In this document: positions 25,787 to 54,788 of the stretch, piece after piece
Position numbering within the stretch: the first letter of the stretch is position 1
Layout: every line of letters begins with the position of its first letter
Source of the DNA: Rhodospirillales bacterium
Lineage (GTDB): Bacteria; Pseudomonadota; Alphaproteobacteria; Rhodospirillales; Thalassospiraceae
DNA: 64,000 nucleotides
Direction: 5' to 3'
Assembly: GCA_019634165.1 (NCBI GenBank)
Contig: JAHQVT010000006.1
Coordinates: 186,001-250,000, forward strand
Notes under the pieces: model-generated
Told to the model about the DNA's origin: nothing
Seen by the model: the letters and a program-made list of their open reading frames with translations, nothing else
Databases searched by the model: none
Made by a program: the position numbers and the translations under genes

Positions 25787-26565
25787 ATCGCAGCCTCCGC
25801 CATGTCCGCACCCAATTGACGCAGCAATTCTGCTTGCTGTGCCAATATTGCCGGATCGGAGATGTTGCGGGGGCTTTGACCGGTTGGCGTTACCGCATTT
25901 CGTAAGCTTGCCGGTGTGCCCGACAGCACATGGACATGATCACCAAGACGAAGGGCTTCTAGCGGGTCGTGGGTGACCAGCAAAACGGTTTTACCGCGCA
26001 AAACTTTGGCGGCCAATTCCTGCAAACGCAGACGGTTGACCGGATCAAGGGCCGAAAATGGTTCGTCCATCAGGACAACCGGGCGGTCTTCCATCAGGGT
26101 TCGGGCAAGGGCCGCACGTTGTTTCATGCCGCCGGAAAGTTTGGCCGGGCGAAGATATGCGGCATCGGTTAAGCCGACGTCGGCAATCAGGCGTTCCGAT
26201 TGATCATGATCAGGGCGTTCGCCGCGCAGGATCGCGCCAAGTTCAACGTTCTCGCGCACATTGCGCCATGGTAGCAATAAGTCCTGCTGGGCCATATAGG
26301 CGACCCGGCCAGTTAGGGGGAAGCCATCTGAACAGGTGATGTTACCGCTAACATCGCCTTGTTCCAGCCCGGCGAGATAGCGCAAAAGCGTGCTTTTGCC
26401 AACACCGCTTGGGCCCAGCAAACAGGTAAAACTTCCGGCCTGTAAGGTCAGATCAAGGTCATGGAAAATATCCGCACCACCAAATGCCACACGGGCACCG
26501 CGCAGGTGAATATCGAACTGGGTGGGATTGGATGCCGAACGGGTCGGCTGTTTTGTGTCGGTCAT
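25783..26565 (-). CDS. thiZ: ABC transporter ATP-binding protein (ThiZ-like)
   Basis: Walker A GPSGVGKST near residue 52, the Q-loop YMAQQDLLLPW, the signature LSGGMKQRAALA and Walker B VVLMDEPFSALDP are intact. First gene of thiZ-thiX-thiY, its start codon standing directly behind the TPP riboswitch, which supplies the AGGAAGGA ribosome binding site. Confidence 0.9.
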   Translation of the reverse strand: MTDTKQPTRSASNPTQFDIHLRGARVAFGGADIFHDLDLTLQAGSFTCLLGPSGVGKSTLLRYLAGLEQGDVSGNITCSDGFPLTGRVAYMAQQDLLLPWRNVRENVELGAILRGERPDHDQSERLIADVGLTDAAYLRPAKLSGGMKQRAALARTLMEDRPVVLMDEPFSALDPVNRLRLQELAAKVLRGKTVLLVTHDPLEALRLGDHVHVLSGTPASLRNAVTPTGQSPRNISDPAILAQQAELLRQLGADMAEAAI

Positions 26566-26566
26566 A

Positions 26567-26667
26567 CGATCCTTCCTACGCCGGTCTTAACCGGTTCAGG
26601 TTCAAAGGGTCGTTTGGCAACACCAAACCTCTCAGCCGATTTACGATCGGCCCCCCCGGAGATGACG
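26567..26667 (-). promoter_or_regulatory. TPP riboswitch (THI element)
   Basis: Read on the minus strand this leader has all THI-box landmarks in order: CCGGGG, a GCCGAT/ATCGGC stem followed by CTGAGA, then ACCCTTTGAACCTGA, the CCGGTTAAGACCGG hairpin and GCGTAGGAA. The end of the aptamer runs into AGGAAGGA just before the thiZ ATG, so thiamine pyrophosphate should close the first helix and hide the ribosome binding site, giving control at translation. Confidence 0.95.
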
Positions 26668-29252: not shown

Positions 29253-29329
29253 GGTCCCTTAGCTCAACTGGATAGAGCAACAGACTTCTAATCTGTAGGT
29301 TGCAGGTTCGAGTCCTGCAGGGATCGCCA
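29253..29329 (+). tRNA. tRNA-Arg(TCT), island integration target
   Basis: A 77-nt cloverleaf with CCA: acceptor GGTCCCT/AGGGATC (one G-T pair), D stem GCTC/GAGC, anticodon stem ACAGA/TCTGT with loop CTTCTAA (TCT at 29,287-29,289), T arm GCAGG TTCGAGT CCTGC. Its 3' two-thirds plus seven flanking bases recur at 54,508-54,564, marking it as the attachment site of the island. Confidence 0.96.
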
Positions 29330-29386: not shown

Positions 29387-30433
29387 TTAGTCACTGCTCC
29401 GAGAAAAGTTAGTCACTTGCCCGACTTGATCAGCGCGGTTGATTTTGTCAATCGCCATTTTCGCGTTTCTGCGCTGGCGTGTATATTTCTGCACCATCGA
29501 GACTGTCTCATGCCCCACAATGTCAGCGATTTCTTCCCAAGAAAGACCGAGTTCCTTGAGGCGCGTTGCCGCAGCATATCGACCACCATGTGAGGTGAAG
29601 TCTTCTGGCAAGCCTGCAGCTCTATATGCTTTGCGCATGAACTTGGAAAATGCGGTTGCGTCCATCTGCATGCCCATTGGGGATGGTACAAGGTTCATGC
29701 TTGTGGTGTTCGGTAGCCAGGCATCGAGTGTGTCCTTTAGTCGATTGGAAACAGGGATGTCCAAACGCTTGCCGGTTTTGCTCTGAATGACAGAGACGAT
29801 GTTTGACCGAATGTGGTTGCGGGTCATGGTGCGCACATCGCCAGATCTTTGTCCTGTATTCAGCAGAAGTTCAAACGCTGCGCGTTCTTTCGTTCCAATG
29901 TCCCAATGTGAACGGAATTGATCGATTTCGAATTCTTCCCATGGCCTGTGTCCATCGCCTTCCTTCAGGCGCTTGAAACGAGATGCAGGGTTAACGGCGA
30001 CATATTCCATATCAACTGCGAACTGCATCAGAAGCCGCAGTGTCGTAAGAAGGTTGTTGGTGTCCCGTGGGGTATCTGCCCCGGCATTGCGGATACTCAG
30101 AACCAGGCGGCGACTGATTGACGTTACATGCTTTGATCCACAGAGTTTGCCAATCTTGTCGAGTAGCCGTTGATATTCCTTCTTTGTGCGTGGCTTCAAT
30201 TGTTTGAAGCTTGGGCTGCTTTTGTACTGCGCGATCAGATCGTGGACCGACCCTTTGGTAATGCCTTTCTCACTGGTCTGAAAACAGCGATGAATATCCT
30301 GATAGTTTTGCAGCCACTCGTTGGATCCGACCATCCCTTTGATGCGAACCTTCTGCCCATCGCGTCGATAATACGCATAGACCTTGCCCTTACTGCTGTA
30401 GGAGTTCACGTAGGGTAAATCTACTGAGGCCAT
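29387..30433 (-). CDS. tyrosine site-specific integrase
   Basis: Phage-type integrase with an N-terminal SAM-like core-binding domain (about residues 65-150) and a complete catalytic domain: the first Arg in LNTGQRSGDVRT, Lys in QSKTGKRLDIP, the HxxR box as TSHGGRYAAATRLKEL, His in DIVGHETVS and the nucleophile in VQKYTRQ. All six active-site positions are present, so it should be functional. ATG 30,433 or 30,445 may be the start; neither has a clear ribosome binding site. It overlaps the upstream excisionase-like gene by about 45 bp. Confidence 0.92.
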   Translation of the reverse strand: MASVDLPYVNSYSSKGKVYAYYRRDGQKVRIKGMVGSNEWLQNYQDIHRCFQTSEKGITKGSVHDLIAQYKSSPSFKQLKPRTKKEYQRLLDKIGKLCGSKHVTSISRRLVLSIRNAGADTPRDTNNLLTTLRLLMQFAVDMEYVAVNPASRFKRLKEGDGHRPWEEFEIDQFRSHWDIGTKERAAFELLLNTGQRSGDVRTMTRNHIRSNIVSVIQSKTGKRLDIPVSNRLKDTLDAWLPNTTSMNLVPSPMGMQMDATAFSKFMRKAYRAAGLPEDFTSHGGRYAAATRLKELGLSWEEIADIVGHETVSMVQKYTRQRRNAKMAIDKINRADQVGQVTNFSRSSD

Positions 30434-30686
30434 CGCAAATATCATCCACGTTGTATGATTCGTCTTTCTGCGTTTTCTGGGTGGTTGTCAGGCCAGATCG
30501 ACAGTTAAGGTATGCTTCGATTGCAACGCTATCCCATCCGAAGTCTGAATCCTTTTTGGGGAATCCGTCAAGCTTCGCGATCTTCCGGTGCATTGTGTTT
30601 GGCGTGCAGCCCAGATGACGTGCAAGCTGCCAATCTGTCCAATAACGAGGATCAGGAACGAATTCAGGAAGTCTTCTGGCTACCAT
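30390..30686 (-). CDS. excisionase-like (AlpA/MerR-type) DNA-binding protein
   Basis: A 98-residue protein with a winged-helix DNA-binding motif, YWTDWQLARHLGCTPNTMHR, then FGWDSVAIEAYL, as in AlpA/Xis recombination directionality factors and helix-turn-helix domain 17 proteins. GGAGG stands five bases before the ATG at 30,686; a longer in-frame reading to 30,770 lacks such a site. Overlap with the integrase gene supports a joint int-xis operon. Confidence 0.7.
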   Translation of the reverse strand: MVARRLPEFVPDPRYWTDWQLARHLGCTPNTMHRKIAKLDGFPKKDSDFGWDSVAIEAYLNCRSGLTTTQKTQKDESYNVDDICDGLSRFTLRELLQQ

Positions 30687-31088: not shown

Positions 31089-31334
31089 ATGCCGTTCTCG
31101 GAAGATAGATATCCGTTTCAGGCTGCTCTTCGTTGGCAGGGGGATCGCACACGTGTTCTGTCTGAGGAAGAAGAAATAGCGCTGTATGAGCGTAATTGGG
31201 ATTGGATCGGGATACTCGCTGAACCAACAAAAGAAGAGTTGCAGCACATCCGCAAACTAGCTGAACGCAACAGATCGTGGCTCGTTAATGAATGTGAAAA
31301 GCGCATGGACAAGGGGCCTGCCAAGAGTATCTGA
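31089..31334 (+). CDS. small hypothetical protein, 81 residues
   Basis: A charged protein (VLSEEEEIALYERNWDWIGI and a helical C-terminus ending EKRMDKGPAKSI) with no recognised domain. GGAG precedes the ATG by eight bases, which supports real translation. It is divergent from the int-xis operon and lies just inside the internal arm copy, so it belongs to the integrase module; a regulatory or accessory recombination role is a guess. Confidence 0.55.
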   Translation: MPFSEDRYPFQAALRWQGDRTRVLSEEEEIALYERNWDWIGILAEPTKEELQHIRKLAERNRSWLVNECEKRMDKGPAKSI

Positions 31335-31394: not shown

Positions 31395-31551
31395 TGGACG
31401 TTCAAAGCTGATAGGCAACGAATGGCAAGCTTCATTGAGATGGGGCCGGTGTCTCGAAACCAAGTTCGTTTTTGGTTCTCGTGTTTCAATCTGCCGCCTT
31501 CTTGAAATGAAGATCAGTGATGCGGCCTTCTGGCGTCTCCGACAGACTTCT
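31395..31551. repeat. internal copy of the island's right-end arm
   Basis: 157 bp align without gaps to 54,361-54,517, with about 18 differences by hand count. The match ends at GACAGACTTCT, which is within the anticodon loop of the tRNA-Arg sequence; beyond it the tRNA 3' end does not continue. It looks like the arm of an older attachment site that was split at the crossover point. Confidence 0.85.
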
Positions 31552-31750
31552 GGAAAGTTCAAAAATTTTTTGAGGAAAATGTACGATCGCCGTGTCGGTC
31601 TGTTCCTGGAAAGCAACTTTAAGTAACCATACGAACATCTGTGTTGGGACTTCCCTTATAGGAGTAAACGACGTGTTGCAGAAAATCCGATTATTTTTTA
31701 ACTCCGTTTTTTGTACGTCACTTCTTGTTTGATCAACTGGCGTTTTTCGT

Positions 31751-32010
31751 TTTGTCGCACTTAGGTCCCCAAAAGGCCTTGGATTTTAGCCTTCTCCCCA
31801 TGTTAGTGCGACAAATCTCGAAGGGGCGTTACAAATTCACCAATAGTCTTGTTGGACCCTTGTTGGAAACTCAATTCCTGTCAAGGGTCCAGCACGGGTT
31901 CAACAAGGGTTCAACAAGGGTCCAACAAGACCATATTTTGACCTTGTTACGGTTGCATCAAGTTGCAGATAATGCCATCCCAGTTTCCATATACAATCAG
32001 GGATGGCATT
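31751..32010. repeat. cluster of inverted repeats and 11-bp iterons
   Basis: Three inverted repeats follow each other: TTTGTCGCACT (31,751-31,761) with AGTGCGACAAA (31,805-31,815); a perfect 20-bp pair, 31,846-31,865 with 31,912-31,931; and AATGCCATCCC (31,971-31,981) with GGGATGGCATT (32,000-32,010). The middle one is built of 11-bp units: four direct units of the form GGGTYCARCAM (31,885-31,928) and two inverted units (31,849-31,870). Role unknown: a binding array, a replication or partition site remnant, recombinase arm sites, or a structured RNA. Confidence 0.8.
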
Positions 32011-32192
32011 CTGAAGTTTTGGAGTTTGTTTCAACACATAACCTTACCTTTGCTTCGCGGTGCCTTAACAACAAGTATGCACGTAGTTTCTTGTCATAAT
32101 TCGGGGGTATTGCTTCGTGTTGCAACAGTGAGGATCACTGTCAAAACGGGTGGCACTGATTGGTTTTGTCGTAGGTTTTGCTTTGTTTGAAA

Positions 32193-32209
32193 TTTAGAAT
32201 AATTCTAAA
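32193..32209. promoter_or_regulatory. Irr-type iron control box upstream of fepA
   Basis: TTTAGAATAATTCTAAA is a perfect palindrome with the TTTAGAA-N3-TTCTAAA form described for Irr (iron control element) in alphaproteobacteria. It stands about 70 bp before the receptor start codon. Iron-dependent control is inferred from this match; a Fur-family paralogue could also use it. Confidence 0.65.
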
Positions 32210-32279
32210 TAACAATCATTGCGCTTAGATAGTGGTGATATTAAGAATACCTCGCATTTGCAAAGTGGGGTGTTTAATT

Positions 32280-54360: not shown

Positions 54361-54517
54361 TGGACGATCAAAGCTGGCGGGCAACGAATGGCAAGCTCCA
54401 TTGAGATGGGGCCGGTGTCTGGGCACCAAGTTCGGTTTTGGTTCTAGTGTTTCAATCCGTCGGCTTCTTGAAATGAAGACCGGTGATACGGCCTTCCGGC
54501 TTCTCCGACAGACTTCT
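54361..54517. repeat. right-end arm of the island attachment site
   Basis: 157 bp matching 31,395-31,551 without gaps, running directly into the tRNA-Arg fragment of the right attachment repeat. This is the element-derived arm of the right junction. Confidence 0.85.
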
Positions 54518-54564
54518 AATCTGTAGGTTGCAGGTTCGAGTCCTGCAGGGATCGCCATTTTTCT
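54508..54564. repeat. right attachment repeat (tRNA-Arg 3' fragment)
   Basis: 57 bp identical to 29,280-29,336. It contains the anticodon stem-loop to CCA end of tRNA-Arg but no 5' half, so it is not a tRNA gene. Confidence 0.93.
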
Positions 54565-54578
54565 GTAATAAAAAACAA

Positions 54579-54788
54579 TCACTTGTTGTGTTGGTGCTGA
54601 TTTTCGGAGTCAGAGTTAGTCACTTGTCTGCCTTGATCCGTGCGATTGACTTTGTCAGTAGACATTCTCGCTTTCCTGCGCAGACGGGTATATTTCGGGA
54701 CCACCGAAACTGTTTCGTGATCAACGATGTCCGTGATCTCTTTCCATGTGAGGCCGAGTTCTTTGAGGCGCGTTGCGGCTGCGTATCT
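54579..54788 (-). pseudogene. tyrosine integrase remnant (C-terminal 69 codons)
   Basis: Conceptual translation on the minus strand begins RYAAATRLKELGLTWKEI, continues DIVDHETVSVVPKYTRLRRK and ends with TGA at 54,579-54,581. It aligns with the last 65 residues of the complete integrase at 29,387 (RYAAATRLKELGLSWEEI...). The upstream four-fifths, including the catalytic Arg and Lys, are absent. It occupies the same place relative to the tRNA fragment as the intact integrase does at the left end, so it is the remains of a second, tandem element. Confidence 0.88.

Follow-up and report, generated by a model that had tools for sequence, protein, structure and literature searches.

Our results lead us to propose that the noncoding segment at 31751-32010 of the window (the whole stretch of 64,000 nucleotides that was analysed) is an orphan copy of a plasmid-type site for DNA processing, the likeliest kind being an origin of transfer (oriT) for a tyrosine-recombinase-type enzyme, a reading to which we assign a probability of roughly 40%. 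The segment belongs to a rare structured site that is also found beside a plasmid recombinase gene amid transfer genes and, judging from sequence comparison, is therefore probably a signal for processing or transferring DNA that the island has borrowed. We prefer to read the plasmid copy as an oriT and the island copies as orphan oriTs on three grounds: the layout upstream of the plasmid gene, the association of its family with transfer genes, and the fact that many of the plasmids concerned have no typed relaxase.

All three perfect inverted repeats named in the initial annotation are present as described, with arm lengths of 11, 20 and 11 bp. On the plus strand, dyad 1 consists of the arms TTTGTCGCACT (31751-31761) and AGTGCGACAAA (31805-31815), 43 nt apart; the 20-bp repeat has its arms at 31846-31865 and 31912-31931, 46 nt apart; and the third repeat forms a hairpin over 31971-32010, AATGCCATCCC/GGGATGGCATT, with arms at 31971-31981 and 32000-32010, 18 nt apart. 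Markov shuffling of the stretch (200 rounds) gave perfect repeats of at most 10 bp. The four direct and two inverted 11-bp units close to GGGTYCAACAA are there as well: the direct units, GGGTCCAGCAC, GGGTTCAACAA twice and GGGTCCAACAA, run head to tail on the plus strand over 31885-31928 (starts at 31885, 31896, 31907 and 31918) and match at 9, 11, 11 and 11 of 11 positions, and the inverted units at 31849 and 31860 match at 11 and 9 of 11. The two kinds of repeat are interlaced, as the left arm of the 20-bp repeat includes the inverted unit at 31849-31859 together with part of the weaker one at 31860-31870, and the right arm overlaps the direct units. Across the whole window, GGGTYCAACAA is matched with at most one mismatch nine times (four inside the array) versus 2.74 expected, a number attained in 0 of 100 shuffles, and the period-11 self-similarity of the segment was equalled in 0 of 2000 mononucleotide shuffles. 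Folding z-scores for 31745-32015 are -5.95 as RNA and -7.21 as DNA. With its dyads and 11-bp iterons, the segment looks like a protein-binding array, as had been suggested.

Relatives of this structure, which we call the box, are few. A search of 60 genomes with the window yielded three foreign matches, two of them in genome G002 (E = 3.1e-5 and 1.1e-4; copies L002 and L004, 36 kb apart) and one on a plasmid contig of genome G009 (E = 4.2e-4; copy L003), and by sequence this contig is plasmid NZ_CP004389 of T. xiamenensis M-5, the sole strong match in one plasmid search. A covariance model built from the four copies recovered the same four sites only, at E <= 0.05 and with strict filters, in 3 of 317 genomes of the order, and covariance models run on 29 genomes of the genus recovered the four sites, with other matches weak. 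An exact-pattern scan of the genome collection, which returned neither the window's own record nor that of G009, picked up both G002 copies, along with two further matches that we attribute to chance. Candidate relatives L005, L006 (the same as L048, E = 0.82), L016 and L017, as well as L044-L047 and L050 (E = 0.026-0.50), were dropped as chance by eye; further short matches with E of 0.3-5 were taken for chance; and viral contigs searched with three patterns gave no match. The nucleotide search suggested in the initial annotation succeeded by one route, the genome search that led to NZ_CP004389, and came back empty when plasmids were searched directly with the window or with L002 as query.

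All four copies, which are a small sample, have in common a dyad with a loop of 43-45 nt, TTCTCnnnATGTTAGTG at the end of that loop and, at a fixed distance of 14 nt from GTTAGTG, RGGGYGTTA; together these form a conserved core of 90 nt, in which ATGTTAGTGyGA runs across the loop end and the right arm. In the window, the loop end and the start of the right arm are made up by TTCTCCCCATGTTAGTG (31792-31808), and the RGGGYGTTA match is GGGGCGTTA (31823-31831), both on the plus strand. The window copy also contains GGGGCGTTAC, which may be chance. The left arm lies at offset -52 in the window, -53 in L002, -54 in L004 and -53 in the plasmid copy. Because the arms are identical over ten pairs in the window, L002 and L004, these copies carry little information on pairing; in the plasmid copy, both partners differ in 2 of 11 pairs (G-C to U-A and G-C to A-U), and sliding the alignment by 1 to 3 columns leaves zero compensated pairs. 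The plasmid-copy dyad has 7 of 9 Watson-Crick pairs at offset -53 (P = 0.00175, left-flank shuffle with the offset held at -52 to -54). Since 35 of 500 letter shuffles did as well on the compensation measure, that measure alone is modest. A protein-binding dyad would give the same compensation as a hairpin.

To the right of the core the copies diverge. About 11 bp further on, the window, L002 and L004 have two inverted and several direct 11-bp units, and the iterons of these three chromosomal copies carry RTTC in the same register (by eye) and otherwise differ in sequence; the plasmid copy has a 10-bp inverted repeat at this position and no periodic array. Folding z-scores are -3.55 for L002, -7.88 for L004 and -0.43, which is not unusual, for the plasmid copy, whose predicted fold excludes the dyad. 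On inspection, the third hairpin (31971-32010) was seen in none of the three relatives and may be unrelated to the element. A pseudoknot between the loop C-run and the downstream G-run was discarded, its pairing being inconsistent across the four copies (by eye).

Genome G002 shows further features near its boxes. Two inverted 181-bp copies (82% identical; L011 14825-15005 and L012 9296-9476) lie about 33 kb apart between the two boxes and resemble transposon ends; the genes of this transposon would be TniA/TniB/resolvase-like and metal-resistance-like, as named by eye. Near both boxes there are a palindromic element, TTTTGTTGG...CCAACAAAA (L011 12278-12401, L012 9643-9766), possibly a terminator, and a small gene without a family match (L012 10958-11260, L011 14295-14820, in opposite orientations), of which a relative (by eye) occurs in L023 near a TniQ-looking gene.

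In line with the initial annotation, the segment is noncoding and unannotated, and Rfam 15 gave no match at the gathering score, with two other RNA candidates far below theirs. One open frame, 31725-32099, crosses the repeats; counted from the conserved ATG, it meets a stop at codon 4 in the plasmid copy and at codon 7 in L002 and L004 and is therefore not a conserved coding frame. An ordinary repetitive extragenic element spread through the genome is ruled out by the single copy in the window's own genome. Two further candidates were rejected, namely an operator of the small gene at 31089-31334, since the repeats are absent beside its relatives in L021-L023, and an integron attC-type site, since the core GTTAGTG misfits the attC consensus (by inspection).

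The window comes from a marine bacterium whose genome has near relatives in Thalassospira, and the segment is carried on an island that extends from a tRNA-Arg gene (TCT; 29253-29329) to 54508-54619, where the tRNA end occurs a second time (tRNA-Arg stretch repeated at 82% over 112 bp); the integrase gene of the island lies at 29387-30445 on the minus strand. The right arm of the island, 54361-54517, adjoins the second tRNA-end copy, and a relic of this arm (31395-31551, plus strand, 89% identical to 54361-54517) ends at the tRNA-Arg crossover sequence 0.2 kb to the left of the segment, in agreement with the initial annotation, which had placed the segment next to a broken attachment arm in a mobile-element setting. 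From 32091 rightwards, the cargo is 87% identical to places in genomes G003 and G006 that have other left flanks. With the relic arm on one side and this cargo block on the other, the site sits in a 540-bp stretch, 31552-32090, the right border of which is the start of the similarity to G003 and G006, and we infer that this stretch is of foreign origin.

Several features in the surroundings are recorded here in their own right. An orphan short AbiEi-type antitoxin gene (31089-31334; PADLOC AbiEi, E = 3.9e-11) has no AbiEii-like gene after it; in L002, by contrast, an AbiEii gene comes directly after the related gene, and those in L021 and L022 are followed by similar-looking genes (by eye). 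A 17-nt inverted repeat (82%) at 32184-32218 precedes a TonB-dependent receptor gene and is perhaps, as a guess, a Fur-type operator. A TPP riboswitch occupies 26556-26667 on the minus strand (RF00059, 68.2 bits).

The plasmid copy provides the functional context. The box at 116004-116092, the only copy found on NZ_CP004389, lies 70-155 bp upstream of TH3_RS21780 (from 116159), on the opposite strand, and this gene, which encodes a 383-residue tyrosine recombinase, is followed by one hypothetical gene and then dotD, dotC and dotB. The box sits between the replication origin and a Dot/Icm-type transfer region that comprises dotD, dotC and dotB as well as pilus genes and a gene for ParM/StbA. 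TH3_RS21780 scored with none of the Pfam or NCBIfam families, and no solved structure was found for it by sequence. MOB-suite typing classes NZ_CP004389 as non-mobilizable, and no PF03432 or PF03389 relaxase was found on its contig; an HUH-triad motif scan of the plasmid, which missed 3 of 8 control loci, showed nothing convincing, and a PF01076 search of three genomes gave no match with an equally silent control and is hence uninformative. The nic-like sequence TTAGTGyG was considered for known HUH relaxases and set aside, as AGTG[CT]G beside PF03432 genes occurs in a dissimilar setting. Relatives of the plasmid recombinase were matched in neither the window's genome nor G002, so that no helper is present in these genomes now.

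Relatives of this recombinase recur on plasmids that are often typed as non-mobilizable. Searching with TH3_RS21780 (tblastn) gave 161 plasmid records, of which 82 are typed non-mobilizable, 61 mobilizable and 18 conjugative. The non-mobilizable records numbered 126 of 254 when the pND6-2 member served as query, 29 of 95 (57 mobilizable) with a Yersinia member, and in a comparison set defined by the DotO-like ATPase of NZ_CP004389, 311 of 3764, all of these being raw records uncorrected for relatedness. Transfer of pND6-2 is reportedly known, going by the title of a reference cited in PMC10711205. In 17 neighbourhoods, 16 of them hand-picked out of several hundred records and the other from the Thalassospira plasmid, the recombinase gene is beside Dot/Icm genes in 14, and next to dotD/dotC/dotB in 12, with variants in Thalassospira (one gene between), Acidovorax (without an annotated dotD) and Acidiphilium (where just dotD and dotC are present). 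In two others (L103, L104) the gene comes before dotH or dotI genes, and in three (L101, L112, L113) it is away from Dot/Icm genes. Twelve of the 17 plasmids are typed non-mobilizable, as are 11 of the 14 with Dot/Icm neighbours. Five carry a MOBP relaxase (L101, L106, L107, L113, L114), and on these the relaxase may be the MOBP enzyme instead of the recombinase-family protein; the combination of MPF_I and a MOBP relaxase on one plasmid has been described (PMC3297565). In 13 aligned family members, one of which (L111, Aeromonas) looks frameshifted, the catalytic YxxRH and the nucleophile tyrosine are invariant and the first arginine nearly so, and the alignment shows the motifs GLRPxEW, a conserved K, YSxRH, GH and HYG. 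A separate observation is an unannotated recombinase relative between an FtsK-like gene and mercury genes on the Nitratidesulfovibrio plasmid NZ_CP116247 (L101 8001-8636). Among the literature matches listed, with subscription journals mostly outside, no paper was found that links this recombinase to Dot/Icm-type plasmid transfer.

Inverted repeats also recur upstream of the recombinase gene in other plasmids. A convergent CGTTAC/GTAACG pair within 350 bp is present in 8 of 13 upstream gaps, with 0.09 expected, at most 2 in 400 simulations and 0 in downstream control stretches; because CGTTAC was first spotted by eye in three of the gaps, this count combines gaps that suggested the motif with gaps that tested it. 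For Cupriavidus and Stenotrophomonas, CGTTAC emerged unasked as the best perfect inverted repeat. L101, L103, L112 and L113 were left out of the count because they have no sizeable upstream gap or the gene is unannotated. The five gaps without a pair are those of Thalassospira, which is without CGTTAC, Acidiphilium, A. baumannii, Acidovorax and Alteromonas. Another pattern, C3+ N0-2 GTTA[C/G]T, drawn up after viewing the Thalassospira, pND6-2, X. citri and Bosea gaps (all of which match), is found in two of the nine other gaps (P. syringae and Aeromonas), and in an 8-mer count over the same 13 gaps the best words, CGTTACTC and AGTAACGG, reached 6, as did 1 of 60 shuffle rounds. Compared with CCCCGTTACT, the Thalassospira sequences CCCCATGTTAGTG and GGGGGCGTTAGT show a loose likeness of C-rich or G-rich GTTA motifs, and this likeness and the shared position weakly suggest that the Thalassospira box is related to the CGTTAC pairs.

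Inverted repeats around a conserved core, as expected of an oriT served by such an enzyme, are present in the box. A neighbouring gene for such an enzyme would also be expected: a tyrosine-recombinase gene lies next to the plasmid copy, and no match to its family was found in the genomes of the window and G002. Under the oriT reading, the recombinase-family protein would act as a relaxase, binding at the dyad and cutting a single strand close to GTTAGTG; islands that carry the site could be moved in trans by a resident plasmid, and the element-specific 11-bp iterons may bind an accessory or regulatory protein. R388-type oriTs likewise combine a dyad with 11-bp direct repeats; they are served by an HUH relaxase, and the likeness is one of architecture.

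The arrangement upstream of the recombinase genes recalls relaxases of the tyrosine-recombinase type (TcpM, MpsA, MobK) with their oriTs, and by analogy the recombinase at the plasmid copy may be a relaxase. In pIGRK, the oriT lies just upstream of the gene for the tyrosine-recombinase-like relaxase MobK and contains inverted repeats, and it resembles the plasmid box in its upstream-gap position, its inverted and direct repeats, a G-rich stretch and a separate replication origin; in contrast to our case, activity is proven for pIGRK, via the RP4 T4SS, and the likeness is one of layout (PMC8152469). Salmonella Genomic Island 1 has an island-borne transfer site with several inverted repeats, a candidate relaxase of the recombinase fold, MpsA, with the oriT in the vicinity of its gene, and a helper plasmid, but it encodes its own MpsA/MpsB near the site, whereas no relative of the plasmid recombinase was found in the window's genome or G002 (PMC6414798). 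TcpM (MOBM) of pCW3 is also a relaxase related to tyrosine recombinases; it belongs to a clostridial plasmid, and the non-tyrosine residues are dispensable in TcpM but conserved in the plasmid recombinase family (PMC12857230). Finally, Staphylococcus aureus non-conjugative plasmids that lack mobilization genes carry a copy of the oriT of a conjugative plasmid, albeit in another host and plasmid family, and their mobilisation is reported in S. aureus (PMC4652767).

The main rival, which we consider unlikely, is that the box is a site-specific recombination site of the same recombinase family, involved in dimer resolution or plasmid integration and left on islands by past events, in which case the recombinase would bind the dyad and exchange strands instead of starting transfer. 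It explains the dyads and the enzyme about as well as an oriT does: the neighbouring enzyme retains the active tyrosine-recombinase residues, the plasmid box has oriV on one side and the recombinase gene on the other, and the Bosea pair, CGTTACTT-7 bp-AAGTAACG, resembles a recombinase core, with spans of 31-34 bp in three other plasmids. However, the span is 121-226 bp in 4 of the 8 pairs, and the Thalassospira arms are 43-45 nt apart. The position of the gene beside Dot/Icm transfer genes in 14 of 17 plasmids also speaks against this rival, as does the integration of the window's island at a tRNA by another integrase.

We regard as distinctly improbable that the segment is a regulatory region, that is, an operator array, a structured noncoding RNA or a folded single-strand promoter in the leading region after transfer. 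Such a role would fit the compensated changes in dyad 1 and the strong folding that is predicted for three copies (window, L002 and L004), and also the location of both G002 copies between divergent open frames, one of them upstream of an abiEi/abiEii-type pair. Yet the neighbouring genes are different at every copy, each element has iterons of its own sequence, the plasmid copy shows ordinary folding, no Rfam family reaches its gathering score and promoter-like sites number 2 versus 0.9 expected.

More improbable still is a replication origin or partition site, in which an AT-rich stretch, dyads and iterons would be bound by an element-encoded initiator or partition protein. The iterons have helical spacing, several copies have T-tracts on the left side of the box (by eye), and the plasmid carries a Rep_3 gene and a ParM/StbA gene. 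The replication origin of NZ_CP004389, however, consists of Rep_3, four 22-bp iterons and a TGTGGATAAG/CTTATCCACA repeat next to rep, and this separate iteron array makes the replication-origin idea less likely, as does the lack of iterons in the plasmid copy of the box; no initiator was recognised among the genes inspected near the island copies or, by eye, among the listed frames of the window, some of which were scanned. The further idea of an arm-type or attachment site for the island's own integrase finds no support, because the tRNA-Arg stretch is absent from the segment (tRNA-Arg sequence nearby amounts to just 10 bp, at the end of the relic arm) and the other copies are without this integrase, one having a different integrase about 1 kb away (L011), the plasmid copy a different recombinase downstream, and the third relative copy no integrase that could be seen.

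Having weighed these alternatives against the orphan oriT, we put forward, as a tentative and still doubtful generalisation, that dotD-linked tyrosine recombinases of alpha-, beta- and gammaproteobacteria may be the missing relaxase of "non-mobilizable" plasmids, acting at oriTs built on convergent CGTTAC repeats, and that Thalassospira islands, though without transfer genes of their own, may carry a divergent, iteron-extended copy that makes them movable by such plasmids. Many large Dot/Icm-type plasmids are typed non-mobilizable, as in the 311 of 3764 records above. The finding points to the stretch 31751-31931 and to one recombinase gene. If the dotD-linked recombinase serves as the relaxase in some of these plasmids, they would be self-transmissible, with a transfer site that can be found by sequence, and islands that carry the site alone would become recognisable as mobilizable.
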